Source: Zunongwangia mangrovi (GTDB taxonomy: Bacteria; Bacteroidota; Bacteroidia; Flavobacteriales; Flavobacteriaceae). From it: a DNA stretch of 64,000 nt. The notes beneath the pieces were generated by a model that had not been told where the DNA came from, did no database searches, and saw only the letters and a list, made by a program, of their open reading frames with translations. Positions 23,869 through 37,072 of this stretch are shown here, in pieces (position 1 is the first letter of the stretch; every line of letters begins with the position of its first letter). The position numbers were made by a program, and so were the translations under genes. The DNA lies in the NCBI RefSeq assembly GCF_900112105.1, contig NZ_FOKV01000003.1, positions 372,001 through 436,000 on the forward strand, in the 5' to 3' direction.

Positions 23869-26235
23869 ATGAAAGAGCAAAAGCAGGATTTCCCCCTGGA
23901 TATAACAATAAGCTTCCATAGAGTAATAGAGCAATATGAAGATCGGCTTAAAGTTGAGGAGAATCCTATTGCCAAAAAATACATCAAAAGTTTACTGGGA
24001 TACATCGAAAAATACCCAAAGCTCGTCGAGGGGATCAATAATATCAAAGATTTAGAAAAATACAAAGATCCTATAAAGATTCTGTTAGATGATCTTTTTC
24101 CCAATGTGTTAAGCAATAACGAGATAAAAGCAGTTTCGATACCTTATCATAATATTCTTTTTAATCACTCTAATCGATTAAAGAAGATCATAGATGCCGC
24201 AGGAAAAGATTTTAAGCCAAGTATGCGTGAGATCGATGATAATGCGGCATACATTAATGCCTGTATTAATATTCTAAATAAATACTACGATTTTAATATC
24301 GATTTTTCGCGGCCACCGTATTATGATATTCCAGATGAAAACGGAATTGAAAAACATTATCGAGCAAGTTTAAATGGCGATTTTGTAGAATTATACCCCA
24401 AAGAAGATGCGAAAGAGATCACACAAGAGGATGTAGATGATCTTTTGCAAAATGTTGAAAATATAGATTTGTGGAAAGAAAAGTTTCCGCCGTGTAGTTG
24501 GGTTTTTAAAGGTTTTGTGATCGTAAATCTAACCGATGTTACTGTTGAAGACGCTATTTCTGAATTGAAAACAGCTTTACTTTTTCAGAAAACAGCTCAA
24601 AAAGAGGAATTAAATAAACTGGAACGAATTTTTAGAACGATCTATAAGATTCCAGATCTTCGAGTTGGCTTTACGGGTTACAATATGGAAGACAGGACTT
24701 TTGAAAAGGTAACAAAGCTGAAGGCTAAGAGTTTTATATTAAATGACGATCTGGAAAGCGACTGCAAAACTGGAATTTGCGAGCAGAGTTTTAATAGCCT
24801 AATCAAGGATAATAAGAAATTTAGTATTCCAAATGTAGAAGCTTACGCACGAGAGAACGATAACCTCCTAGCCAGAAATTTGCTAGCAAACGATGTTAAG
24901 AGTTGTATTTTAGCGCCGCTTGCCAAAAACGGGAACCTGGTAGGAATATTAGAGTTAGTGGCTAATCGCAAAAATGTGCTTAACCGCATTAATGCGATGA
25001 AACTAGATGAAATCTTACCTTATATTATTACAGCTTCTGAGCGTAATAAAAATGACTTCGAAAATCGTGTAAAAGCGGTAATTCAAAGTGAATGTACCTC
25101 TATTCATCCTAGTGTTTTATGGGTTTTTGAGCGTGAAGCTCGAAAATTTATAAGTGACTACGATAGTGATGGGCTTGCATCTTTTAAGGATATTGTCTTT
25201 AAAGATGTATATCCTTTATATGGACAAATTGATATTGTAGCGAGTAGTGATGCCAGAAATGAAGCCATTCAGAAGGATTTGCTCTACCAATTGGATGTCA
25301 TTTTAGAAATTATTGATAAAGCTTATAAGATCGAAGAACTTCCCATCTATGAACAGGTTAAGTTTAGAATTAAGGAATTTAGAGTTGATATCGATGAAAG
25401 TCTAAATGCCAGCAGTGAACAGAAAATTTTTGGTCTTTTGCAGCGCGAAGTGAATCCATTAATGGAGCATTTAGAAAAGCAAAGTGAGGAAATAAGAAAA
25501 ATGGTAGCCGATTATCGGGAAATGCTAAATCCCGAAACCGGAATCATTTACAATCATCGTAAAGATTATGATGATACCGTACAACAGATCAACCGTACAA
25601 TGTCTCGTTTTCTGGATAAACGACAATTAGAAGCACAGAAAATTTATCCGCATTATTTTGAGCGTTACAAGACAGATGGGGTAGATCATAACATGTATAT
25701 AGGGCCATCGCTTACCAAAAATAAGCCATTTAATAAAGTCTATCTTTTTAATTTAAGATTGTGGCAAATAAAGACAATGGTAGAGATGGAAAACAGGTTT
25801 TATCACCTGCAGCAATCTACTCCAATGCACTTAGATGCGGCTTCTTTGATCTTAGTCTATAACACGACTCTCTCTATTCGTTATAGAATGGACGAAAAGA
25901 AATTTGATGTTGATGGTACTTATAATGCCAGGTACGAAATCATTAAAAAGCGTATCGATAAAGCCTTTATTAAAGGAACAGAAGAACGAATTACCACTAA
26001 AGGAAAGATCGTTATTATTTATTCGCAAAAATCTGATGAACGCGAATATGTTCGTTACGTAAAATACCTTCAGGCTAAGAAATATTTAGGAGATGAACTT
26101 GAGCTTTTAGAACTGGAAGATGTACAGGGTGTAATTGGGCTTAAAGCAATTCGAGTAAATATTTTATATACTTCAGAGGAAAAAGAGCATGAAAAGCCTA
26201 TCACTTATGAAAATCTAATGGAAGAATTGCATTGA
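23869..26235 (+). CDS. Large GAF domain-containing cytoplasmic protein
   Basis: A 788-residue soluble protein with a GAF-like ligand-binding fold at about residues 255-400 (a beta strand 'DLRVGFTGYNM', then 'NLVGILELVANRKN', the usual core strand). The regions around it are mostly helical; the first 170 residues include repeated amphipathic helices and the C-terminal 300 residues are not recognisable to me. No kinase, cyclase or DNA-binding motif can be seen. In many flavobacteria proteins of this length are simply named GAF domain protein. It has no signal peptide or transmembrane segment and stands alone, converging on the HD-PycTM gene. Function unknown. Confidence 0.7.
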   Translation: MKEQKQDFPLDITISFHRVIEQYEDRLKVEENPIAKKYIKSLLGYIEKYPKLVEGINNIKDLEKYKDPIKILLDDLFPNVLSNNEIKAVSIPYHNILFNHSNRLKKIIDAAGKDFKPSMREIDDNAAYINACINILNKYYDFNIDFSRPPYYDIPDENGIEKHYRASLNGDFVELYPKEDAKEITQEDVDDLLQNVENIDLWKEKFPPCSWVFKGFVIVNLTDVTVEDAISELKTALLFQKTAQKEELNKLERIFRTIYKIPDLRVGFTGYNMEDRTFEKVTKLKAKSFILNDDLESDCKTGICEQSFNSLIKDNKKFSIPNVEAYARENDNLLARNLLANDVKSCILAPLAKNGNLVGILELVANRKNVLNRINAMKLDEILPYIITASERNKNDFENRVKAVIQSECTSIHPSVLWVFEREARKFISDYDSDGLASFKDIVFKDVYPLYGQIDIVASSDARNEAIQKDLLYQLDVILEIIDKAYKIEELPIYEQVKFRIKEFRVDIDESLNASSEQKIFGLLQREVNPLMEHLEKQSEEIRKMVADYREMLNPETGIIYNHRKDYDDTVQQINRTMSRFLDKRQLEAQKIYPHYFERYKTDGVDHNMYIGPSLTKNKPFNKVYLFNLRLWQIKTMVEMENRFYHLQQSTPMHLDAASLILVYNTTLSIRYRMDEKKFDVDGTYNARYEIIKKRIDKAFIKGTEERITTKGKIVIIYSQKSDEREYVRYVKYLQAKKYLGDELELLELEDVQGVIGLKAIRVNILYTSEEKEHEKPITYENLMEELH

Positions 26236-26294: not shown

Positions 26295-27479
26295 TCACAT
26301 CAGATAAAAAGCGATTACAAACGCAATTACCGAGATAATAATTCCTAACATAAAAACAGTATAGGTCAATCTGAGTAATAAATATTTACGATGTAAAACT
26401 TTACCTAACAAGTGTAGATCGAGCATTAGCGATTCGTAAACATAATCTTTATCCTGAATCATTTCGTTGATTCCCCATTTAAATAGATCGAAAGGCATTT
26501 TGTGGAAATTTCCGAAGAAAAGAAGATTTACATCACGATTTTTAACCTGCTCTTTGGTGAATTCTCCGCTGGTCACATTTGGACGAGTAGACATGATCGA
26601 AAGAATCATAGAAGCAACGCTAAAAAGTACCAAAACCAGCGTAGGAATTAATAAGTGGCGATTACTTACCGCATCTAATTTTGGAATAAGGTTAGAGATT
26701 GCCAAAGAAATAATAATCGCATTTACAGAAAGTAAAATGTTGGCCTTAGTATCTGCAATATCACTTAATTTGATATGATTTCGTAAAGTTACCCTGAATA
26801 AAGTTTGAATACTTCGCTCTGGATTATCGTTTTTGTATTTAGCTTTTAGTCGGGCTTTATGCTCTTCTTTGGTTAGTTTTTTCTCTCTTTTATTTTGCTT
26901 TTCAACAAGATCTAAAAGATTCTCTTCTTTTGCGTGATTCCAGTTCTTTAGTGCATAATCGGTATAGAATTGATGCTTTTCAGTCAGCATTTTAATATTC
27001 TCCATAATCCATTCACTAGAAGTGAAATTCTTACGGTTATGCAATTGCAATTCTTGCCTTAAAAGTTCGCTGGTTTCTTCGTAATAATCTTTAGCAAAAT
27101 GAGAAGAATCGGCATCTTTAATGATCATTTCTCCGATATCCTGCGGTGTGTGGCTAAACTTAGTCGCCAGAATATATTTAGAAACCTGATCAATGAGATC
27201 TTGGGTAGCATTATTATCTTCTAAAAAGTTTTTGGCGATCTTAACACTGGATTCTTCGTGCTTCTCGTGACCCTTAGTATATCCGGTGTCATGAAACCAT
27301 GCAGCGAGCTTAAGTGCCTCTTCTTGTTTAACATTAATTTCAGAATGTTCAATTAATTCTTCAGTACTTTTAACAACTCTTTCTGTATGCTTGTAATTGT
27401 GATATAGAAAGGTATTAGGGAGTTTATCCTTGAATAATTCAAGAACATATTTATCAGCTTTATCTAAAAGGTTGTTCAT
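26295..27479 (-). CDS. HD phosphohydrolase fused to a PycTM (Pycsar effector-type) domain
   Basis: A 394-residue protein in two parts. Residues about 1-190 carry an HD-type phosphohydrolase with the metal ligands in place: His27/His31, 'WFHDTGY' (His63-Asp64) and 'KDADSSHF' (Asp122). Residues about 225-394 resemble the PycTM effector domain of Pycsar anti-phage systems ('NHIKLSDIADTKANILLSVN', then three hydrophobic helices near 245-262, 275-298 and 372-392). A basic linker (190-220) joins the two. Pycsar effectors normally sit beside a pyrimidine cyclase; none is present here, so this may be a chromosomal relative with another role. It is divergent from the phosphoesterase fusion, 55 bases away. 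The assignment rests on motif reading. Confidence 0.75.
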   Translation of the reverse strand: MNNLLDKADKYVLELFKDKLPNTFLYHNYKHTERVVKSTEELIEHSEINVKQEEALKLAAWFHDTGYTKGHEKHEESSVKIAKNFLEDNNATQDLIDQVSKYILATKFSHTPQDIGEMIIKDADSSHFAKDYYEETSELLRQELQLHNRKNFTSSEWIMENIKMLTEKHQFYTDYALKNWNHAKEENLLDLVEKQNKREKKLTKEEHKARLKAKYKNDNPERSIQTLFRVTLRNHIKLSDIADTKANILLSVNAIIISLAISNLIPKLDAVSNRHLLIPTLVLVLFSVASMILSIMSTRPNVTSGEFTKEQVKNRDVNLLFFGNFHKMPFDLFKWGINEMIQDKDYVYESLMLDLHLLGKVLHRKYLLLRLTYTVFMLGIIISVIAFVIAFYLM

Positions 27480-27534: not shown

Positions 27535-30500
27535 ATGAAAAGATATAACTACTACTGTTTTTTGTTTATTTTAACGCTTGTAGCTGCCTGCACAAGTTCA
27601 GATCCAAAATATCGAAAAGGAGAACCCACTTCTAACTTTGGATATCCTGAAAATAAGGAAATTGAGAAGACTTTTTATTTATTAGGGGATGGAGGCTATT
27701 CACCAGAAGGTGGTACTTCTAAAGCCTTAGTAGTCTTTAAAAAGTTTATTAAAGAAAGAGACACCAGGGGAGATTATGCGATCTTCTTGGGAGATAATAT
27801 TTACCCGGTTGGAATGCCTCCTAAAGATGATCCTTTACGTGAACAATCTGAATATCGATTGGATGCGCAATTAGATGCAGTAGAGAATTATAATGGAAAG
27901 GTGATCTACATTCCCGGAAATCACGATTGGTATAGCGAACGTATCGATGGTTTAGAACGCCAGGAAGAATACCTTATAGAACAATATGGTGATTCTTTAG
28001 ATTGGTCTCCCAGCACAGGATGTGGATTAGAGATCAAAGAAATTTCTGATGATATACAAATGATCATTATCGATTCGCAATGGTATCTTGAAGATTGGGA
28101 CAAAAGCCCAACGGTCAACGACAATTGCGATCAAATAAAAACTAGAGAAGCATTGTTCACAGAAATCGAAAGTGAGCTAAAAAAATCGCAGAATAAAACA
28201 ACGATTATCGCCTTACACCATCCTATTTTTTCTAACGGAATTCATGGTGGGCAGTATAATTTTAACCGACATCTATATCCATCGCAGCGAAAAATTCCGG
28301 TGCCAGTTTTGGGTTCTTTAGCAATGCTTATTAGAACTACCGGAGGAATTTCTATCCAGGATCTACAAAATGAACGTTATAAGTCTTTATCAGATCGATT
28401 GGAAACTATGGTTAAAGGAAGAGATAGAGTAATATTTGTTTCTGGCCACGAACATACTTTACAGTACATCGATCACGACGGGATCAAACAAATTATTTCG
28501 GGATCTGGATCTAAAGAAAATTATGTAGCGCTGGGAACAGATGGATTATTTGCTTTTTCGCTTCAGGGATTTGCGGTTTATGATGTATTTAAGGATGGAT
28601 CTTCCTGGGTTAGTTATTATCGAAATAGAAATAATGAGCCAGAGTTGATGTATCAAAAAGAAGTTTTTGAAAGTCCGAAACCTTATAAATTGGGAGATTT
28701 CCCAGATTCTTTTCCGCAGAAAAAAACAGCGAGTATCTATCCTGAAGAAGATGTAGATGTAAGTGGTTTATATCGAACATTATGGGGTAAGCGCTACCGA
28801 AAGTTATACGGGACTGATATCGAATATAATGTTGCAGATCTTGATACTTTGTATGGTGGTTTAGAGCCGATGCGAGAAGGTGGAGGTCACCAAACAGTTT
28901 CGATACGAGTAAAAGATTCTTTAAATCGAGAATATAATATTAGGCGTTTGCGCAAAGACGCTGTTCAATTTTTGCAAACGGTTGCTTATAAAGATAAACC
29001 TATAGAGAAACAATTTCAGAATACTACAGCAGAAAGTATTATTACAGATTTTTATACTTCGGCGCATCCTTTTGCATTTCTTGCGATTCCAACATTGTCT
29101 GAGGCGATAGGGCTTGCACATACAAACCCGAAGGTTTTTTATATGCCTAAGCAGGATAATCTAGAAGAACTTAACGAAGATCATGGAGACGACGTATACA
29201 TGATCGTAGAACGTCCCGAGGAACATTGGCTTGATCTGGAAAGTTTTGGATCGCCAAATCACGATATCGTTAGTACAGCCGGAATGTTTGAACGTATTCG
29301 AAGAGATGAAAAATATAAAATAGACGAGCCGGCTTATGTAAAAGCAAGGATCTTTGATATGCTGGTTGGCGATTGGGACAGGCACCAGGATCAATGGCGT
29401 TGGGCAGAGAATGAAGATGGAGAAGGTAACCATGTGTTTACGCCAATTCCAAGAGATCGTGACCAGGTATTTTCAAATTTCGACGGTGCTTTTTTTGGTA
29501 CGCTTCGATCGCTAGTTGGTCTGGCAAATCAATTTGCAGTTTATGATGAAAAACTAACGAATATTGAGTGGTTTAATATTGCTGCCATTGGTTTAGACCG
29601 TTCTATACTTCAAAACACAGGAAAAGAAACCTGGTTAGAACAGGCAGAATATATTCAGCAAAATATAACAGATGAAGTTATCGAAAATGCCTTTAGTAAT
29701 CTTCCGCCAGAAACACAGGGAGAAATAACAGAAACTGTAGTCGAGAAACTAAAAGGTAGAAGGGATAATATTGTAGAAATTGCTGAAAGGTATTACGATT
29801 ATTATGCAAAACTGGCAATAGTTACCGGTACAGACAAGGACGATTTTATTGATGTTACCAGAATGCCCGAAGGAAAAACGAAAGTTACGATCTATAGAAA
29901 TAAGAAAGGGGAACGTGCAGATATCGTAAGTGATTATATTTATGATAAAGAGTTTACCAAAGATATTTGGATCTATGCTTTAGATGACGATGATATCATC
30001 ACCGTAGATGGTGAAGGTGATCGCCTAATTTATGTGAGGATAATTGGTGGGCAAAACAACGATATTTATAGAATAAGAAACAAGAAGAAATTAAAGATAT
30101 ACGATCATAAATCTAAACCAAATACCATAGAAGAAGGTGCAGACGCCCGATTTAGATTTACAGATCAATACGACCTTAATATTTATGATAAAGATAAAAA
30201 GGTATTCAAATCTACCTCTATAACACCTGGGATAGGTTATAATCCAGATGATGGTGTTAAGCTTGGGTTTAAAGCATTGTATACTATCAATGATTTTAAA
30301 AGAAATCCCTATACCTCACAGCACGAACTAAAAGCAGGATATTATTTTGCTACAGATGGTTTTGATCTAAGTTATCAGGCAAGATTTGCAACGATTATAG
30401 GAGATTATAATTTACAAGTTGGAGCACATTTTACCAGCCCTAATTTTGCTAGAAACTTTTTTGGCTACGGAAATGAAACGGTAAACCTAGATGATGATCT

Positions 30501-31254
30501 TACATTAGATTATAACCGAGTTAAGATTAGCAGAATTGGAGGTGACGTTGGTTTGGTAAATGCAACTCCGTTTGGTAGCTATTTTAGCTATAAAGCAAGT
30601 TTTGAAACAGTAGAGATCGATCACACTGAAGGAAGATTTATAGATGAATTTACACCAGATGATACTGAAGGATTTTTTGATCGAAAGTATTTTGCCGGTC
30701 TGGATGCTTTGTATCGCTATGAAAGTTATGATGATGTTTTAAATCCAACCCGCGGAATGCAATTTGATTTAAATCTTGGTGCAAAATTAAATACGGCCGA
30801 TACAGATCGAAATTATGGATATTTTAAATCTTATTTAGAATTTTATAATTCACTCATACGTAGTCGAAAACTAGTATTGAAAAGCCATGTGCAAACACAA
30901 ATAAATATAGGTACAGATTACGAATTTTATCAGGCCGCTGTTTTAGGAGGTGGTTCTGGATTGAGAGGTTATAGATTGCAGCGATTTGCAGGAAAAAGCG
31001 CTTTTGCTACAGGAGGAGACCTACGCTATAGCTTTAATCAGTTTAAAACTTCTTTTCTTCCATTTCAAATAGGGGTTTTTGGTGGCTATGACCTTGGTAG
31101 AGTATGGTTAAAAGATGGTAATAGTGACCAGTGGCATGATAGTTATGGAGGTGGAATATGGATTAATAGTGCCGAGGCAGTAAACGGAACATTGCACGTA
31201 TTTAATGGAGATGAAGGATGGCGAGTAAGTTTTGGTTTTGGCTTTAGATTTTAA
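27535..31254 (+). CDS. Metallophosphoesterase/kinase-like/BamA-type barrel lipoprotein
   Basis: A 1239-residue exported protein with a lipobox ('VAACTSS', Cys19). Residues about 45-345 are a calcineurin-like metallophosphoesterase ('FLGDNIYPVG', 'GNHDW' at 128-132, 'ALHHPIFSNG', 'GHEHT' at 304-307). Residues about 440-680 resemble an atypical Fam20/CotH/HipA-like kinase: a G-rich stretch at 446-452, 'RRLRKDAVQF', the catalytic-loop-like 'GDWDRHQDQW' at 612-621 and a metal-site-like 'RDRDQVF' near 640. Residues about 890-1239 are a BamA/TamA-type barrel with 'GSGLRGY' and a terminal 'GFRF'. The first part should therefore face the periplasm or the surface. The kinase reading is an inference. 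A terminator follows at 31278. No frameshift is seen. Confidence 0.8.
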   Translation: MKRYNYYCFLFILTLVAACTSSDPKYRKGEPTSNFGYPENKEIEKTFYLLGDGGYSPEGGTSKALVVFKKFIKERDTRGDYAIFLGDNIYPVGMPPKDDPLREQSEYRLDAQLDAVENYNGKVIYIPGNHDWYSERIDGLERQEEYLIEQYGDSLDWSPSTGCGLEIKEISDDIQMIIIDSQWYLEDWDKSPTVNDNCDQIKTREALFTEIESELKKSQNKTTIIALHHPIFSNGIHGGQYNFNRHLYPSQRKIPVPVLGSLAMLIRTTGGISIQDLQNERYKSLSDRLETMVKGRDRVIFVSGHEHTLQYIDHDGIKQIISGSGSKENYVALGTDGLFAFSLQGFAVYDVFKDGSSWVSYYRNRNNEPELMYQKEVFESPKPYKLGDFPDSFPQKKTASIYPEEDVDVSGLYRTLWGKRYRKLYGTDIEYNVADLDTLYGGLEPMREGGGHQTVSIRVKDSLNREYNIRRLRKDAVQFLQTVAYKDKPIEKQFQNTTAESIITDFYTSAHPFAFLAIPTLSEAIGLAHTNPKVFYMPKQDNLEELNEDHGDDVYMIVERPEEHWLDLESFGSPNHDIVSTAGMFERIRRDEKYKIDEPAYVKARIFDMLVGDWDRHQDQWRWAENEDGEGNHVFTPIPRDRDQVFSNFDGAFFGTLRSLVGLANQFAVYDEKLTNIEWFNIAAIGLDRSILQNTGKETWLEQAEYIQQNITDEVIENAFSNLPPETQGEITETVVEKLKGRRDNIVEIAERYYDYYAKLAIVTGTDKDDFIDVTRMPEGKTKVTIYRNKKGERADIVSDYIYDKEFTKDIWIYALDDDDIITVDGEGDRLIYVRIIGGQNNDIYRIRNKKKLKIYDHKSKPNTIEEGADARFRFTDQYDLNIYDKDKKVFKSTSITPGIGYNPDDGVKLGFKALYTINDFKRNPYTSQHELKAGYYFATDGFDLSYQARFATIIGDYNLQVGAHFTSPNFARNFFGYGNETVNLDDDLTLDYNRVKISRIGGDVGLVNATPFGSYFSYKASFETVEIDHTEGRFIDEFTPDDTEGFFDRKYFAGLDALYRYESYDDVLNPTRGMQFDLNLGAKLNTADTDRNYGYFKSYLEFYNSLIRSRKLVLKSHVQTQINIGTDYEFYQAAVLGGGSGLRGYRLQRFAGKSAFATGGDLRYSFNQFKTSFLPFQIGVFGGYDLGRVWLKDGNSDQWHDSYGGGIWINSAEAVNGTLHVFNGDEGWRVSFGFGFRF

Positions 31255-31418: not shown

Positions 31419-34205
31419 ATGCTTAAAAAAGCATTATTTCTGCTAGTGATTGTATCATCAATTACTGCCCAGTCTCAAAAGTTTGAGATATCAGGAAAAT
31501 TACTGGATAGTATAACTCAGGAACCTTTAGAAGGGGCCACCGTATTTACCGAGACTTTAAAAGATAGTACCCTAATCAGTTACACTATAACAGATGCTGA
31601 TGGTGTTTTTAATGTTTCAGGGAAATCTTCAAAAGAAAAAATAAATCTCTTGATCTCCTTTGTGGGGTACGATCCCGTAAAGAAATTAATTTCACTACCG
31701 CAAAGTGAATATCCTTTGGAACTTAAGCCAATCGAAATGTCACAACGAGTTGAATCTTTAAGTGATGTTTTAATTGAAGGGAGAGTACCTCCCATTAGAA
31801 TTAAGCAGGATACTCTTGAATATAATGCAGCATCTTTTAAAACAAAAGAAGGAGCAACGATAGAAGATCTTCTACGAGAATTACCGGGAGTAGAGATAGA
31901 TGAAGATGGGACTATTAAGGTTAATGGTATAGAGGTAAATAGAATATTAGTAGGGGGAAAAGAGTTTTTCTCTGGTGATGGAAGTATTGCAACAAAGAAT
32001 CTACTAAAAGATATGGTAGATAAAATTCAGGTGGTAGATACACGATCTGATAGCCAGGTTTTTCGCGGGGAGAAAGCAAGTGGAGATAGTAAAACGGTCA
32101 ATATAAAACTAGATAAAGATAAGAATAAAGGTGTTTTTGGCCGAGTTGCAGCCGGGGGAGGAAGTGACGAACGTTTCGAGTTTGCTGGTCTTGCTAATTA
32201 CTTTAATGATGATTTGCGATTAAGTGTGCTTAGTGGAGGGAATAATATCAATACTTCTGGTTTTACATTTGGTGAACTTAGAGAAATATTTAATACTAAT
32301 TCTTATACAACATATAATGGAGGAATAAGTATTGGTGGTAGAAGAATAGGTGGTGGTAATGGTATAGTGAATTCTAAAATTACCGGTGCCAATTATGCCG
32401 ATGATCTTGGGGAAAATCTGGAAGTAAGTTCAGATTACTTCTATTCTGCCTCTAATAATTATTACAGAAACGTTTCGTCTTCAGAAAATATTCGTCCAGA
32501 TGGAAATTACTTCTCAGAAAATAGTTATAACAATACCGGAAACCAGGACAAACATGAGATTAATTCAAGAATTAAAGCAACTATAGATTCGAGTTGGATG
32601 ATCGATGCACGACCAAGATTTAGTTATGATAAAAACTTTACGAGAGGGAGTAGGACTTCAGAGAGCAGGGAAGAGAATGGAGAATTAAGAAATACATCAA
32701 ATTCTAATAATTACGGACTTACAGAAACAACCAATTTCGTAAACAGCTTAAATATTAACAGGAGATTTAATCAATCGTTTCTAACATTTGGAATAAATAA
32801 CAATATCTCTAATTCAGATTTTGAAAGCAATAATCAATCAGAATTCATTTTTTATAATTCAGACCAGGAAAATATTTATCGAGATCAGATAACAAGAGGA
32901 GGCTCTAAAAACAACAATTCTCGCGCTTCAGTAAATTTTAGATCTCCAATTATCGAAAAGTTACTTTTCTACGGTATTTCTTATAATTATAGTGCTAATC
33001 TGCAGGATTCAGAAAACTTAGTTTTCGATCTGGATGAAGAATCTAATAGCTATACCAATCTTAATGAAGATCAAAGTACAAGTTTTGATAATCATACCAT
33101 AACTCACAAACCTGCTTTAAATATTAGTTATCAGGGTGAAACTTTTAATTTTTCCATAGATGCCAGATATTCTTTTGCAGATTTAGAAAGTACAGATAGA
33201 ATTAGAGATTTTAGCTTTGAGAATGATTTTAATGCTTTTGAAGGAAGTGCCAGATTCAATTATAGTATTTCAAAAACTTCGAGTCTTCGGTTAAATTACA
33301 ATTTATCTAACCAAATTCCTTCGATCTATAGCTTAACACCGTATAGAAATATTTCAAATCCACTAAACATAGTTGAGGGAAATCCAGATTTAGACCTCAC
33401 CAATCGCCATAATGTTAGATTGAGTTATAATGGTAATAATATGGATAAGCAGCTTTATTTCAATGCAAGTATCAATGGCGATTATACTGTAGATCCTGTA
33501 CAATCTCAAACCACTATAGCCGATGATCTTTCAAGATTTACAACCTTCAGCAATATAAATGATGAGTATGGACTGTCTGCTTCTGTTTGGATGAATAAGA
33601 ATTTCAAATTAGATTCTATTAATCGTTTGGGCGTTAATCTGAATATTAGTGCAAGGCATAATAAGAATTATCGATTTACCGATGAAACTTTATATTCAGC
33701 CAGTACTCAGAATTATAGAATTGGACCATCTGTAAATTTGTCTAACCAGAGCTTAAGACTTCAGCTAAGTTATTCTATGAATTTGCAAGTTGCAGAATAT
33801 GATTTGGAGACCATAGCAGATCAAAGAATATATCGAAATTCGTTAAATTTTAGTGGTTTTATAAAATTCCTTAAGAATTTTGAATGGAATAATGATTTTA
33901 GATATTCAACTAATCCGCAGGTCGATGAGGATCGATTTGATGCACATATTTTCTTTTGGAACTCTTCTATATCGTATAAATTCCTAAAAAATGATTTCGG
34001 GCTATTGACGCTTAAGGCATATGATATTTTAAACGAAAACACGAATGTCTATCAATTTTCTGGTGCAGATTCTATCACTTCTTACGAGTCTACGGCGCTC
34101 ACTCAGTATTTTATGCTAAGCTTTAGTTATCGATTTGATACATTCCATAAAAACAGAAAGAGTCAGCCAGGAAGAGTAAGGCATTACAGGATAAACACCC
34201 TATAA
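31419..34205 (+). CDS. Outer-membrane beta-barrel receptor-like protein, copy 1
   Basis: A 928-residue exported protein of the TonB-receptor-like class with an OMP_b-brl_3 barrel. After a signal peptide (about 1-18) come a carboxypeptidase-regulatory-like domain (about 20-105; 'ISGKLLDSITQEPLEGATVF', 'LLISFVGYDP'), a plug-like domain (about 115-215; 'LLRELPGVEIDEDGTIKVNG', 'NRILVGGKEFF') and a long barrel rich in Asn, Ser, Tyr and Phe. No TonB box can be pointed to. It may transport, or simply span the membrane; the ligand is unknown. A close paralog follows 92 bases later, which shows a tandem duplication. Confidence 0.85.
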   Translation: MLKKALFLLVIVSSITAQSQKFEISGKLLDSITQEPLEGATVFTETLKDSTLISYTITDADGVFNVSGKSSKEKINLLISFVGYDPVKKLISLPQSEYPLELKPIEMSQRVESLSDVLIEGRVPPIRIKQDTLEYNAASFKTKEGATIEDLLRELPGVEIDEDGTIKVNGIEVNRILVGGKEFFSGDGSIATKNLLKDMVDKIQVVDTRSDSQVFRGEKASGDSKTVNIKLDKDKNKGVFGRVAAGGGSDERFEFAGLANYFNDDLRLSVLSGGNNINTSGFTFGELREIFNTNSYTTYNGGISIGGRRIGGGNGIVNSKITGANYADDLGENLEVSSDYFYSASNNYYRNVSSSENIRPDGNYFSENSYNNTGNQDKHEINSRIKATIDSSWMIDARPRFSYDKNFTRGSRTSESREENGELRNTSNSNNYGLTETTNFVNSLNINRRFNQSFLTFGINNNISNSDFESNNQSEFIFYNSDQENIYRDQITRGGSKNNNSRASVNFRSPIIEKLLFYGISYNYSANLQDSENLVFDLDEESNSYTNLNEDQSTSFDNHTITHKPALNISYQGETFNFSIDARYSFADLESTDRIRDFSFENDFNAFEGSARFNYSISKTSSLRLNYNLSNQIPSIYSLTPYRNISNPLNIVEGNPDLDLTNRHNVRLSYNGNNMDKQLYFNASINGDYTVDPVQSQTTIADDLSRFTTFSNINDEYGLSASVWMNKNFKLDSINRLGVNLNISARHNKNYRFTDETLYSASTQNYRIGPSVNLSNQSLRLQLSYSMNLQVAEYDLETIADQRIYRNSLNFSGFIKFLKNFEWNNDFRYSTNPQVDEDRFDAHIFFWNSSISYKFLKNDFGLLTLKAYDILNENTNVYQFSGADSITSYESTALTQYFMLSFSYRFDTFHKNRKSQPGRVRHYRINTL

Positions 34206-34297
34206 AACGTTAAATAAAACTTAAAAAATTAGAACTCATTAAATATTCAACGAGTTTTTTAGTTATTAGCATACGTCAATCAATAATTCATCATTTT

Positions 34298-37072
34298 ATG
34301 TTTAAAAAATTACTGGTCCTCGCTATAGGACTTTTTAGCATTTCATTATCTGCACAAAAATTTGAAATTTCAGGAAAATTAATAGATAAAGAAAACAAGG
34401 CTCCATTAGAGGCTGCAACCGTTTTTGCAGAATCGGTGACCGATAGTACTCTGGTTACGTATACGATCACAGATAAGGACGGAGAATATAAATTAATTGG
34501 AAGAACCGGTCTTAAAGAAGTTAATGTTTATGTTTCTTTTGTAGGTTACGTTCCGCATGAACAAAGAGTTAAACTTGCAGGCGACCGTATGATAACATTA
34601 GATCCTATTGCACTCGAATTTCAGGTGGAGTCTTTAGGCGATGTTTTGGTAAAAGCTAGAAGAGCGCCGGTAACGATCAAGAAAGATACACTAGAATTTA
34701 ATGCTGAATCTTTTAAAACTCAAAAGGACGCTACGGTTGAAGATCTTTTAAAAGAATTACCAGGAGTAGAAGTAGATGCTGAAGGAAATATAACCGTAAA
34801 CGGCAAACCTGTAAATAAGATCCTGGTTAACGGTAAATCATTCTTTGGAGGTGACGATCCTACGATAGCCACACGAAATCTAACTAAAGAAATGATTAGT
34901 AAAATTCAGGTTTCTGATACCAAATCAGACTCAGATGCTTTTACAGGAGAAAATAGCGATGGCGAAAATAAAACCATCAATATTACCATCGATGAGGATA
35001 AGAACAAAGGAGTTTTTGGTCGTGTTTCTGGTGGCGGTGGTACCGATGATCGTTTTGAATATGCCGGTCTTGTCAATTATTTTGATAACGACCTTCAACT
35101 AAGCGCGCTTGGTGGCGGTAACAATATTAATTCTCCTGGTTTTAGTTTTGGGGAGATCGAAAAAATGTTTGGAGGTGGTGGATCCATGATGGTTTCCAGC
35201 ACCGGAGCTTTCAGTATTAATGGTCGTAGTTTTGGTTTTGGTAGCGGAATCATTAATTCACGAACCGGCGGACTTAATTTTGCGGATTCCTGGGGTGAAA
35301 CTTCAGAAATTTCAGCTGATTATTTTTACTCCGGCTCCAATAGTTATGAAGAAACCCAACGTGAGCGAGAAAATATCTTGCCTGATAATCGATATTTTAC
35401 AGAAAGTTATTCTAGAACAGAAGGAAATACAGATCGCCATCAGGCAAATCTAAAATTTACAACAAAACCAGATACCACTTGGTTTATAGATGCCATGCCT
35501 TCGTTCAGTTATACTAAAGCTGAAAATAGTTACGAAAGTAATTCACGGTCTTTTAATGAAAATGGTGACTTAATTAACGAATCTGAGAGTGATAACCAAA
35601 CATTTAGAGATGGAAAGACTTTTGGAGGGAATTTTAACGTGAATAAAAGATGGGCAAATGGCGCTTCATTGTCTTTACGAGTAAACGGGGACCTAGAAAA
35701 TAATGATTCAGAGTCGTATATTTTGACTTCAGCAGAAACCTTTGGAAATGATGGGCAATCTATCGATAGAAATCAATTTACAGATGGAGAACAGGAGAAT
35801 AACAATATTAATTCTACCCTTCGTTATAGACTACCGATTGTAAAAGATAAGTTTTATTTGAATTCTGAAATAGGATATGGTAACGATTCCAGAGATGATA
35901 GGCAATATGTTTACGATCTTAATGATGCTTCTGGAACATTCGATAATTTCAATATCGAGCAAAGTACAGATTTTGAAAATATAAACGAATTTTACCGCCC
36001 AGAGTTTGGATTAGACTGGAATACGAAGAAAGCCAATTTTGGATTGGATGTCGCTTATGTTTATAGAGAAATGGCGAGCAGTGATAACCTAAGAGATTTT
36101 AATTTTTCACAGGATTTTAATGCGCTGGAGTATAATTTAAATGTAAGGTATACGATCAGTCAGAAAATGCGGATCTATTCTAGTATTTCCAGAAATAATG
36201 AGGCTCCGCAAGTTCGCCAGTTATCACCTTACGTAGATGTTTCAGATCCACTAAATATCATTCAGGGTAATCCAGACCTTAAACCTTCTAATAGCACAAG
36301 ATTCTATGTGAATTTTAATAATTATGATTTTCAAACACGTAGCGGTCTTTATGCATACTTAAGTTATTCAGAAACCGATGACCAGGTGGTTTCAAGATCT
36401 CAGGTAGATGAAAATTTTGTAAGATCTACTACCTATGATAATGTTGATGGAGCCTACAGGTTTTATGGAAGTATGAGCTATAGTAAGGATATTGAACTTG
36501 ATACTTTATCTACCATTAAAGTAGGTGTTAGTGCTTACGGAAATGTAGAGAGAACGGTAAACTATAATAACGATCAAATTTATGATCGAGATTCTAAGAT
36601 GGTTGGGCCAACTTTAAATTTTACGTACGAATTAGGAGACTTTTTAGAGTTACGACCTAGTTATGGTATTAGATTCAACACGGTTGAATTTGATATTAAT
36701 GCTTTAGAAGATTATGAGTTTACCAGGCATGAGCTTCGTTTAAGAACTAAAACTAACTGGCCAGAAAATCTAGAATGGAGCAATGATCTTAGTTATTTTA
36801 ATAATCCAAATGTTGGTGCAGCTTTTCAGCAATCTACGGTCCTCTGGAATAGTACGCTTACCTATTCAATATTGGATAACAAAGGAAACATTAGTTTAAA
36901 AGCCTTCGATATTCTGGATCAAAACACTAACACACAACGTCAAACCTCAGAAAATTATGTTCAGGATGTACAAAGTACGGTCTTACAACAATATTTTATG
37001 CTAGGTTTCAGTTATAAGTTTAATACATTAGGTAAAAAGGGAGAGGTTAGAGAAAGCAACTTCTTTTTTTAA
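34298..37072 (+). CDS. Outer-membrane beta-barrel receptor-like protein, copy 2
   Basis: Paralog of the preceding gene, 924 residues, with the same order of signal peptide, carboxypeptidase-regulatory-like domain, plug-like domain and barrel. Shared landmarks include 'QKFEISGKL', 'KDTLEFNAESFKTQKDATVE', 'LLKELPGVEVDAEGNITVNG' and 'DKNKGVFGRVSGGGG' (in copy 1 'DKNKGVFGRVAAGGG'). The plug is the most alike; the barrel has diverged. Both begin 'MLKK/MFKK' and end 'LSFSYRFDT' or 'LGFSYKFNT' shortly before the C-terminus. There is no strong terminator between the two genes, so one transcript could carry both, and a good terminator follows this one. Confidence 0.85.
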   Translation: MFKKLLVLAIGLFSISLSAQKFEISGKLIDKENKAPLEAATVFAESVTDSTLVTYTITDKDGEYKLIGRTGLKEVNVYVSFVGYVPHEQRVKLAGDRMITLDPIALEFQVESLGDVLVKARRAPVTIKKDTLEFNAESFKTQKDATVEDLLKELPGVEVDAEGNITVNGKPVNKILVNGKSFFGGDDPTIATRNLTKEMISKIQVSDTKSDSDAFTGENSDGENKTINITIDEDKNKGVFGRVSGGGGTDDRFEYAGLVNYFDNDLQLSALGGGNNINSPGFSFGEIEKMFGGGGSMMVSSTGAFSINGRSFGFGSGIINSRTGGLNFADSWGETSEISADYFYSGSNSYEETQRERENILPDNRYFTESYSRTEGNTDRHQANLKFTTKPDTTWFIDAMPSFSYTKAENSYESNSRSFNENGDLINESESDNQTFRDGKTFGGNFNVNKRWANGASLSLRVNGDLENNDSESYILTSAETFGNDGQSIDRNQFTDGEQENNNINSTLRYRLPIVKDKFYLNSEIGYGNDSRDDRQYVYDLNDASGTFDNFNIEQSTDFENINEFYRPEFGLDWNTKKANFGLDVAYVYREMASSDNLRDFNFSQDFNALEYNLNVRYTISQKMRIYSSISRNNEAPQVRQLSPYVDVSDPLNIIQGNPDLKPSNSTRFYVNFNNYDFQTRSGLYAYLSYSETDDQVVSRSQVDENFVRSTTYDNVDGAYRFYGSMSYSKDIELDTLSTIKVGVSAYGNVERTVNYNNDQIYDRDSKMVGPTLNFTYELGDFLELRPSYGIRFNTVEFDINALEDYEFTRHELRLRTKTNWPENLEWSNDLSYFNNPNVGAAFQQSTVLWNSTLTYSILDNKGNISLKAFDILDQNTNTQRQTSENYVQDVQSTVLQQYFMLGFSYKFNTLGKKGEVRESNFFF

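Follow-up and report, generated by a model that had tools for sequence, protein, structure and literature searches.

Reversible phosphorylation in bacteria is thought of as a cytoplasmic process, because that is where the ATP is. The closest described relatives of the protein considered here belong to the outer membrane, where Omp85 proteins that carry a PF00149 domain were named the 'Metallo' group by Heinz and Lithgow in 2014 (PMC4104836); the section of that paper on the group calls the domain a metalloprotease, and the paper also presents Omp85 groups that lack POTRA domains. The present locus lies in a window of 64,000 nucleotides (the whole stretch of DNA that was analysed) from Zunongwangia mangrovi (assembly GCF_900112105.1, contig NZ_FOKV01000003.1, positions 372,001 to 436,000 of the forward strand), in which a single plus-strand frame at 27535-31254 encodes a protein of 1239 amino acids with a lipobox, a phosphoesterase, a middle domain and an Omp85 barrel. 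The nearest named relatives in the scan, 92 and 91% identical, are also from Zunongwangia. An earlier sequence-only reading had described this protein as a lipoprotein, possibly acting at the cell surface, that joins a calcineurin-type phosphoesterase, a kinase-like segment with a loop resembling the catalytic loop of Fam20/CotH/HipA-like kinases, and a BamA-type barrel. Among relatives of this protein of marine flavobacteria, the two enzyme sites have come to lie on separate sister genes more than once, and this repeated split, together with the fusion, suggests that the bacterial envelope has a phosphorylation switch that has not been studied.

The middle domain (about residues 405-760; 28747..29814) owes its description as kinase-like to an AlphaFold model, Foldseek and sequence profiles. 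Predicted with 71 relatives, the domain reached a pLDDT of 89.4 and a pTM of 0.89, with the two lobes of a kinase, albeit at modest TM-scores, and its elements follow each other on the model as in a kinase. A first strand leads to the Gly-rich loop GGGHQ (449-453; 28879..28893), which lies between N-lobe strands (65-69 and 75-81 in domain numbering), and is followed by a second strand, a third strand that ends with Lys474 of RRLRKD (470-475; 28942..28959), helices, a catalytic loop carrying FDMLVGDWDRHQDQW (607-621; 29353..29397) and a strand with RDRDQVF (640-646; 29452..29472). From this order on the model, Asp615 is proposed as the catalytic residue, in keeping with its conservation, and Asp641 as a DFG-like metal ligand, in keeping with its pattern of loss and retention. 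All four motifs, including the GGGH of residues 449-452, had been picked out in the sequence-only reading. They are mostly near-invariant across 88 other homologous frames (one gene counted twice), and none of the 135 copies in which both enzyme sites are intact has lost Asp615, Arg616 or Asp641, so that they are more than chance resemblances; Lys474 is kept in all 206 copies with an intact kinase site. The sequence-only reading had been ready to give up its kinase call on a predicted fold unlike a kinase or on variation at Asp615, Arg616 or Asp641, and had proposed structure prediction and a Foldseek search of the region; the predicted fold proved kinase-like and all three residues conserved.

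Among the 50 Foldseek matches listed out of 500 (E up to 10), 42 have titles that name a kinase or a PI3K/mTOR/COQ8 type, comprising protein kinases and PI3K/VPS34, mTOR and COQ8/ADCK3 types, while eight are silent on kinases, two of these being ribosomal subunit entries. Five of those listed have an E below 0.001, namely CtkA twice, Rio2, STK33 and HipA, with CtkA the best at 5.4e-5. CtkA was also the best match among 177635 PDB sequences for a profile of 64 relatives (A5), at an E of 0.011 and with an alignment that covers the catalytic loop. Profile-profile comparison with 18 CotH proteins (18 of 30 loci; phmmer linked 21, of which three weak ones were left out) gave a score of 31.5 over 175 columns, against a maximum of 22.2 in 100 column shuffles and 17.0 for the reversed profile. 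The Pfam Fam20C family (PF06702) made one match only in 148 genomes, and this was to a member of the middle-domain family (E 4.8e-4; 20.4 bits against a cut-off of 26.8). Searched the other way, one of the 64 members matched CotH (PF08757; E 0.039), three matched Fam20C (best E 0.033) and five matched HipA_C (PF07804; best E 0.034), all without reaching the cut-offs; neither PF08757 nor PF07804 had a match in the genome of Z. mangrovi. The single protein found no kinase family in Pfam, NCBIfam or PDB sequence searches, the only kinase names in the PDB being B-raf entries, at E 0.4 or worse, aligned to the phosphatase part. A shallow profile (A1) found no kinase in the PDB, and its 71 members gave one weak FAM198 match in Pfam (E 0.047). 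Membership of Fam20C and of CotH was rejected on scores under the family cut-offs. The Foldseek matches, the CtkA profile match, the CotH score and the Fam20C match together would nevertheless place the domain, as a predicted kinase-like fold, nearest to the FAM20/CotH group (so grouped in PMC9758233) and, by the cut-offs, in none of its families; the kinase-like call thus held, with profiles that point to CtkA and CotH and more weakly to Fam20C and HipA.

The first domain (about residues 45-380; 27667..28674) scores 34 bits with Pfam Metallophos (PF00149), over the family cut-off of 21.5, and the phosphoesterase motifs that had been noted in it are in place (GDN 86-88, GNHDW 128-132, HH 228-229 and GHEH 304-307). 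Purple acid phosphatases are recognised by the ligand set GDxG, GDxxY, GNH(D/E), xxxH and GHxH, which appears here as GDGG (51-54), GDNIY with Tyr90 (86-90), GNHD (128-131), H229 and GHEH (304-307), putting the ligands at D52, D87, Y90, N129, H130, H229, H305 and H307. The best PDB matches of a profile of 30 relatives were of the TRAP/purple acid phosphatase type 5 (E 2.3e-8), with Plasmodium GAP50 found too; GAP50 is also in the Foldseek list for the full-length model (E 1.2e-10). On ligands and PDB profile matches, the general calcineurin-type label was accordingly narrowed, the phosphoesterase itself standing, and the domain is best described from its motifs as of purple-acid-phosphatase (TRAP) type. 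Its profile finds 44 places in the 148 genomes at E 1e-45 or better, 40 of them in frames of at least 1190 amino acids and four in frames of 366-426.

The best evidence for two activities comes from the reciprocal decay of the two sites. One paralogue in the same genome (locus L002, G000:C25:321473-324988), in which no lipobox was seen, has changed phosphatase ligands and intact kinase motifs. Full-length copies, 219 in all, were classed from the state of eight ligands of the phosphatase and eleven residues of the kinase, the kinase site being called broken when at least two of the eleven were changed; frames of less than 1100 amino acids were left out, including locus L034 and the first copy of L067, which are cut by contig ends. 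Both sites are intact in 135 copies, only the phosphatase in 13, only the kinase in 71 and neither in none (Fisher p 0.011, uncorrected for kinship), with a single kinase residue changed in 1/135 and 3/71 copies; one kinase-only frame, of 1106 amino acids (L129), does not have the first phosphatase motifs and so shows gaps there, not substitutions. The phosphatase-only copies have lost His617 in 13/13, Asp641 in 12/13 and Asp505 in 7/13 cases, and in 9-10 of the 13 also the glycines of the Gly loop, which were not used in the classing; Arg616 is kept in all 13. Lys474, Asp505, Asp615, Asp641 and Asp643 are kept in every one of the 71 kinase-only copies. Identity to the window protein drops most in the domain whose site was lost: in phosphatase-only copies it goes from 0.533 to 0.386 for the kinase domain and from 0.534 to 0.503 for the phosphatase, and in kinase-only copies it falls to 0.353 for the phosphatase and to 0.445 for the kinase. 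On a FastTree tree of the linker and barrel (170 of the 219 rows, those at least 80% alike within one class being dropped), phosphatase loss takes nine changes, seven of them forced.

Adjacent copies and whole genomes were compared in the same terms. In all nine loci with adjacent full-length copies, among 42 multi-copy genomes, the neighbours are a phosphatase-only copy and one or two kinase-only copies; the adjacent pair L050 shows the same split, and so probably does L067, whose first copy is cut before the phosphatase. Sixty-six genomes were classed, comprising all 48 genomes of the family sample with at least two matches, G234 and 17 chosen for unusual copies; in 11 of them one match each, a stand-alone frame of 416-450 amino acids, was left unclassed, and one kinase-only locus (L073) was misplaced into genome G455, which altered no class. 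Forty combine a both-intact and a kinase-only copy, 12 have a both-intact copy as their sole full-length one, 12 carry a phosphatase-only with a kinase-only copy, one (G448) has just a phosphatase-only copy, and one (G450) holds a kinase-only copy with a copy of undefined phosphatase state. A kinase-only copy is thus present in 12 of the 13 genomes with a phosphatase-only copy, and exactly one intact phosphatase site is found in each of the 52 genomes that have at least two classifiable full-length copies. The control is provided by 93 family genomes with a single match. Both sites are intact in 84 of these, although two of the 84 show a change at one kinase residue; a change at one phosphatase ligand occurs in two more, and the frames of the remaining seven are cut, short or degenerate. 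Phosphatase-only copies occur in none of these 93, compared with 10 of the 48 multi-match family genomes, always with a kinase-only copy in the same genome (Fisher p 2e-5 for 10/48 against 0 of the 84 fully readable single-match genomes, uncorrected for kinship).

An evenly balanced case can be made that the protein is a two-headed phosphotransfer enzyme at the inner face of the outer membrane, which writes and erases phosphate on one envelope target. Its N-terminal lipid and its own Omp85-type barrel would hold it there, the first head, a phosphomonoesterase of the purple-acid-phosphatase type, would take phosphate off, and the second, an atypical kinase domain of the CotH/Fam20/HipA/CtkA kind, would put it on. 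In the second head the Gly loop (449-453) and Lys474 may bind the nucleotide phosphates, Asp615 may orient the acceptor and Asp641 may hold the metal. That both heads share a single target, be it a protein, lipopolysaccharide or another glycan, is the step we put forward most tentatively.

Several observations weigh against such an enzyme. TM-scores to solved kinases are modest, the best being 0.51 by target with an rmsd of 9; no Pfam kinase family exceeds its cut-off for the middle domain; hhalign's own probability for CotH is 8%; and against 23 HipA proteins (23 of 25 loci) 2 of 100 shuffles equal the profile score, on which ground HipA membership was rejected. The phosphatase-only copies keep Asp615 in 10/13 and Lys474 in 12/13 cases, so they may still bind something, and in kinase-only copies the barrel diverges too (0.378), which makes part of the fall in identity a general one; linker identity falls as well. 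On the tree, kinase loss takes only four changes, each of them forced by starred branches, and a single clade accounts for 10 of the 13 phosphatase-only copies. The adjacent pairs L046-L049 and L221 combine a both-intact with a kinase-only copy and show no split; genome G448 (2.1 Mb) has one phosphatase-only copy and no other match; and genome G520, rated 99% complete, has a lone degenerate kinase-like frame of 840 amino acids without phosphatase ligands (L361), in which both sites seem lost. No neighbouring gene in 80 loci names a substrate, and ATP is considered scarce in the periplasm. The independent loss events are few, but the cell still seems to maintain the two sites as distinct functions.

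Some atypical kinase-fold enzymes use other chemistry, or another donor than ATP, and the middle domain may be one of them, transferring AMP, glutamate or a glycan or drawing on a non-ATP donor, with the phosphatase removing or processing the product. This alternative is unlikely, though it deserves to be kept in sight: it would account for a fold that reaches no family cut-off for a kinase, for the domain's own motifs DWDRH and DRD, and for a place outside the cytoplasm, where ATP would be scarce. The order of the Gly loop, Lys474, Asp615 and Asp641 on the model is nevertheless the usual one of kinases, a phosphotransferase pattern.

The barrel and the lipid anchor bear on where a two-headed phosphotransfer enzyme would act. 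The Omp85 superfamily is marked by a 16-strand barrel with an xRG(F/Y) motif, and the N-terminal domains of its members are normally periplasmic. In the full-length model (pLDDT 88.9, pTM 0.85) the C-terminal part (about residues 891-1239; 30205..31254 with the stop codon) forms 16 strands of at least ten residues, with LRGY at 1143-1146 inside the GSGLRGY (1140-1146) that had been noticed beforehand. Foldseek matched this barrel to BamA, TamA and the SAM complex (TamA barrel 4n74, E 6.6e-11, TM-score 0.78 by target), NCBIfam Omp85_fam gave 61.6 bits, under its cut-off of 200, and neither Pfam nor NCBIfam gave a POTRA match at E up to 1. Ahead of the barrel lies a beta-rich linker (761-890; 29815..30204) with Asp/Gly motifs and no family match, which is present too in barrel-less relatives; its residues 817-845 (29983-30069) are Asp/Gly-rich repeats, which we take to resemble calcium-binding beta-roll motifs. 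At the other end, Cys19 closes a signal peptide with a lipobox (residues 1-19; 27535..27591), exactly where it had been placed, and a simple lipobox pattern, which misses some, recognises 167 of the 219 full-length relatives. Surface export in Bacteroidota is marked by two acidic residues close after the Cys (PMC5080379), and lipoproteins without this signal were assigned to the periplasmic side by the authors of the TamL study (PMC12045153). Taken as two acidic residues among the five that follow the Cys, the signal was found in 0 of the 167 copies with a recognised lipobox. Together with that assignment, this indicates that both enzymes probably face the periplasm, as the N-terminal domains of Omp85 proteins normally do, and the cell-surface location given in the sequence-only reading found no support. 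Export of the N-terminal domains by the protein's own barrel, an idea put forward for patatin-Omp85 proteins, would still bring both enzymes to the surface; Heinz and Lithgow (PMC4104836) raised this for the 'Metallo' group, and the Asp/Gly-rich repeats of the linker would suit it. With the export signal missing, and with stand-alone relatives beginning with a membrane-spanning helix that would leave the domain in the periplasm, surface export seems unlikely.

The kinase-like domain is an independent unit that also occurs without the phosphatase or alone. It is present in 143 of the 395 genomes sampled from the phylum and in 141 of the 199 sampled from the family of Z. mangrovi; among the 150 matches listed from the 395-genome sample, 98 lie in frames of at least 1100 amino acids, 38 in frames of 840-970, nine in frames of 520-630 and five in frames under 450. 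When 259 distinct frames (distinct by exact containment only) were matched against phosphatase, kinase and barrel profiles, the three parts stayed together, as the sequence-only reading had wished to see surveyed, in 220/220 frames of at least 1000 amino acids. Kinase and barrel without phosphatase were matched in 9/10 frames of 630-1000 amino acids, and the kinase profile alone in 9/9 frames of about 550 and 20/20 of about 430, the last, where examined, starting with an N-terminal membrane helix. Most copies of each of the four architectures retain the Gly loop, Lys474, Asp615, Asp641 and Asp643. That both enzyme domains share one chain in all 220 of the longest frames could be read as the sign of a nucleotide-binding sensor, which would regulate the phosphatase beside it and transfer no phosphate. 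A sensor for the phosphatase would not persist where there is no working phosphatase site, yet the 71 copies with changed phosphatase ligands all keep Lys474, Asp615, Asp641 and Asp643, and the domain also occurs without any phosphatase, which makes this explanation improbable. A plain phosphoesterase-barrel whose middle part is a structural spacer, as the detection by Pfam and NCBIfam of phosphoesterase and barrel alone might imply, is barely credible given a conserved, separately occurring middle domain with a predicted kinase fold and strongly conserved active-site residues.

Two groups of barrel-less copies are worth recording. Loci L119, L120 and L121 hold adjacent kinase-like copies of 530-590 amino acids, in which one member is without the DRH (S615, R617) and its neighbours keep it, an arrangement that recalls pairs of active kinase and pseudokinase. 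Five stand-alone copies of about 430 amino acids with a membrane helix (L114-L118) end in CFxC.

Taken more broadly, the two-headed phosphotransfer enzyme may be one form of a flavobacterial envelope switch, in which each cell sets a single phosphatase head against one or several kinase heads from a new family that works outside the cytoplasm. The heads would sit on one chain or be divided among adjacent genes, and barrels in the outer membrane, lipid anchors or a helix in the inner membrane would hold them in place; this extension is somewhat doubtful. An enzyme so common in the outer membrane, with a phosphatase and a kinase-like site, would open envelope phosphorylation to direct tests in laboratory flavobacteria. 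The natural split copies offer single-site versions ready for biochemical work, and databases would gain a new family in the kinase-like domain, which is unannotated.

The divergent neighbour on the minus strand (26295-27479) encodes HD and PycTM (Pycsar effector) domains and has a homologue in 67 of 80 loci; 10 of the 13 loci without it are kinase-only copies of a non-lipoprotein clade. It is a possible functional partner; as a clue to the substrate it was set aside for want of a clear link. Beside it, a 788-residue protein (23869-26235, plus strand) is conserved in 49/80 loci and has no Pfam or NCBIfam match at E 0.01. Downstream (31419-37072, plus strand) are two adjacent genes for proteins of 928 and 924 amino acids with CarboxypepD_reg and OMP_b-brl_3, common to only 3/80 loci. 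Around the stand-alone kinase copies, in nine loci, no neighbouring gene is common to more than four.

The combination of a phosphatase and an Omp85 barrel was thus already named in 2014, and no paper on the kinase domain or the split copies was seen among the open-licence papers listed in searches for the combination; a word search of the text of PMC4104836 for 'kinase' returned nothing. A Riemerella metallophosphoesterase (Niu 2021) was considered as a studied homologue and not used, a review placing it among type IX effectors. With the 'Metallo' group the window protein shares PF00149 and an Omp85 barrel without POTRA domains, but the section on that group (PMC4104836) speaks of a metalloprotease and names no middle domain, whereas here a domain of purple-acid-phosphatase type and a kinase-like domain precede the barrel. 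TamL, a lipidated Omp85 protein of Bacteroidota (PMC12045153), is alike in its lipobox and outer-membrane barrel; it has POTRA domains where the window protein has enzymes. Purple acid phosphatases (TRAP) have the same metal-ligand pattern, including the Tyr of GDNIY, and provide the best PDB profile match, while the window protein differs in its lipid anchor and in the kinase-like domain and barrel joined to the phosphatase. The CotH, Fam20, HipA and CtkA kinases resemble the middle domain in predicted fold, in the order of Gly loop, Lys and catalytic and metal Asp, and in profile similarity; the domain differs in falling under the curated cut-offs of CotH, Fam20C and HipA_C, in its own motifs DWDRHxDQW and RDRDQxF, and in being joined to a phosphatase and a barrel. 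HPr kinase/phosphatase and AceK are bifunctional kinase/phosphatases of the cytoplasm, and they would be alike in having a kinase and a phosphatase on one chain, if activity is confirmed, but the window protein has two separate folds, in the envelope, which can be separated between genes.

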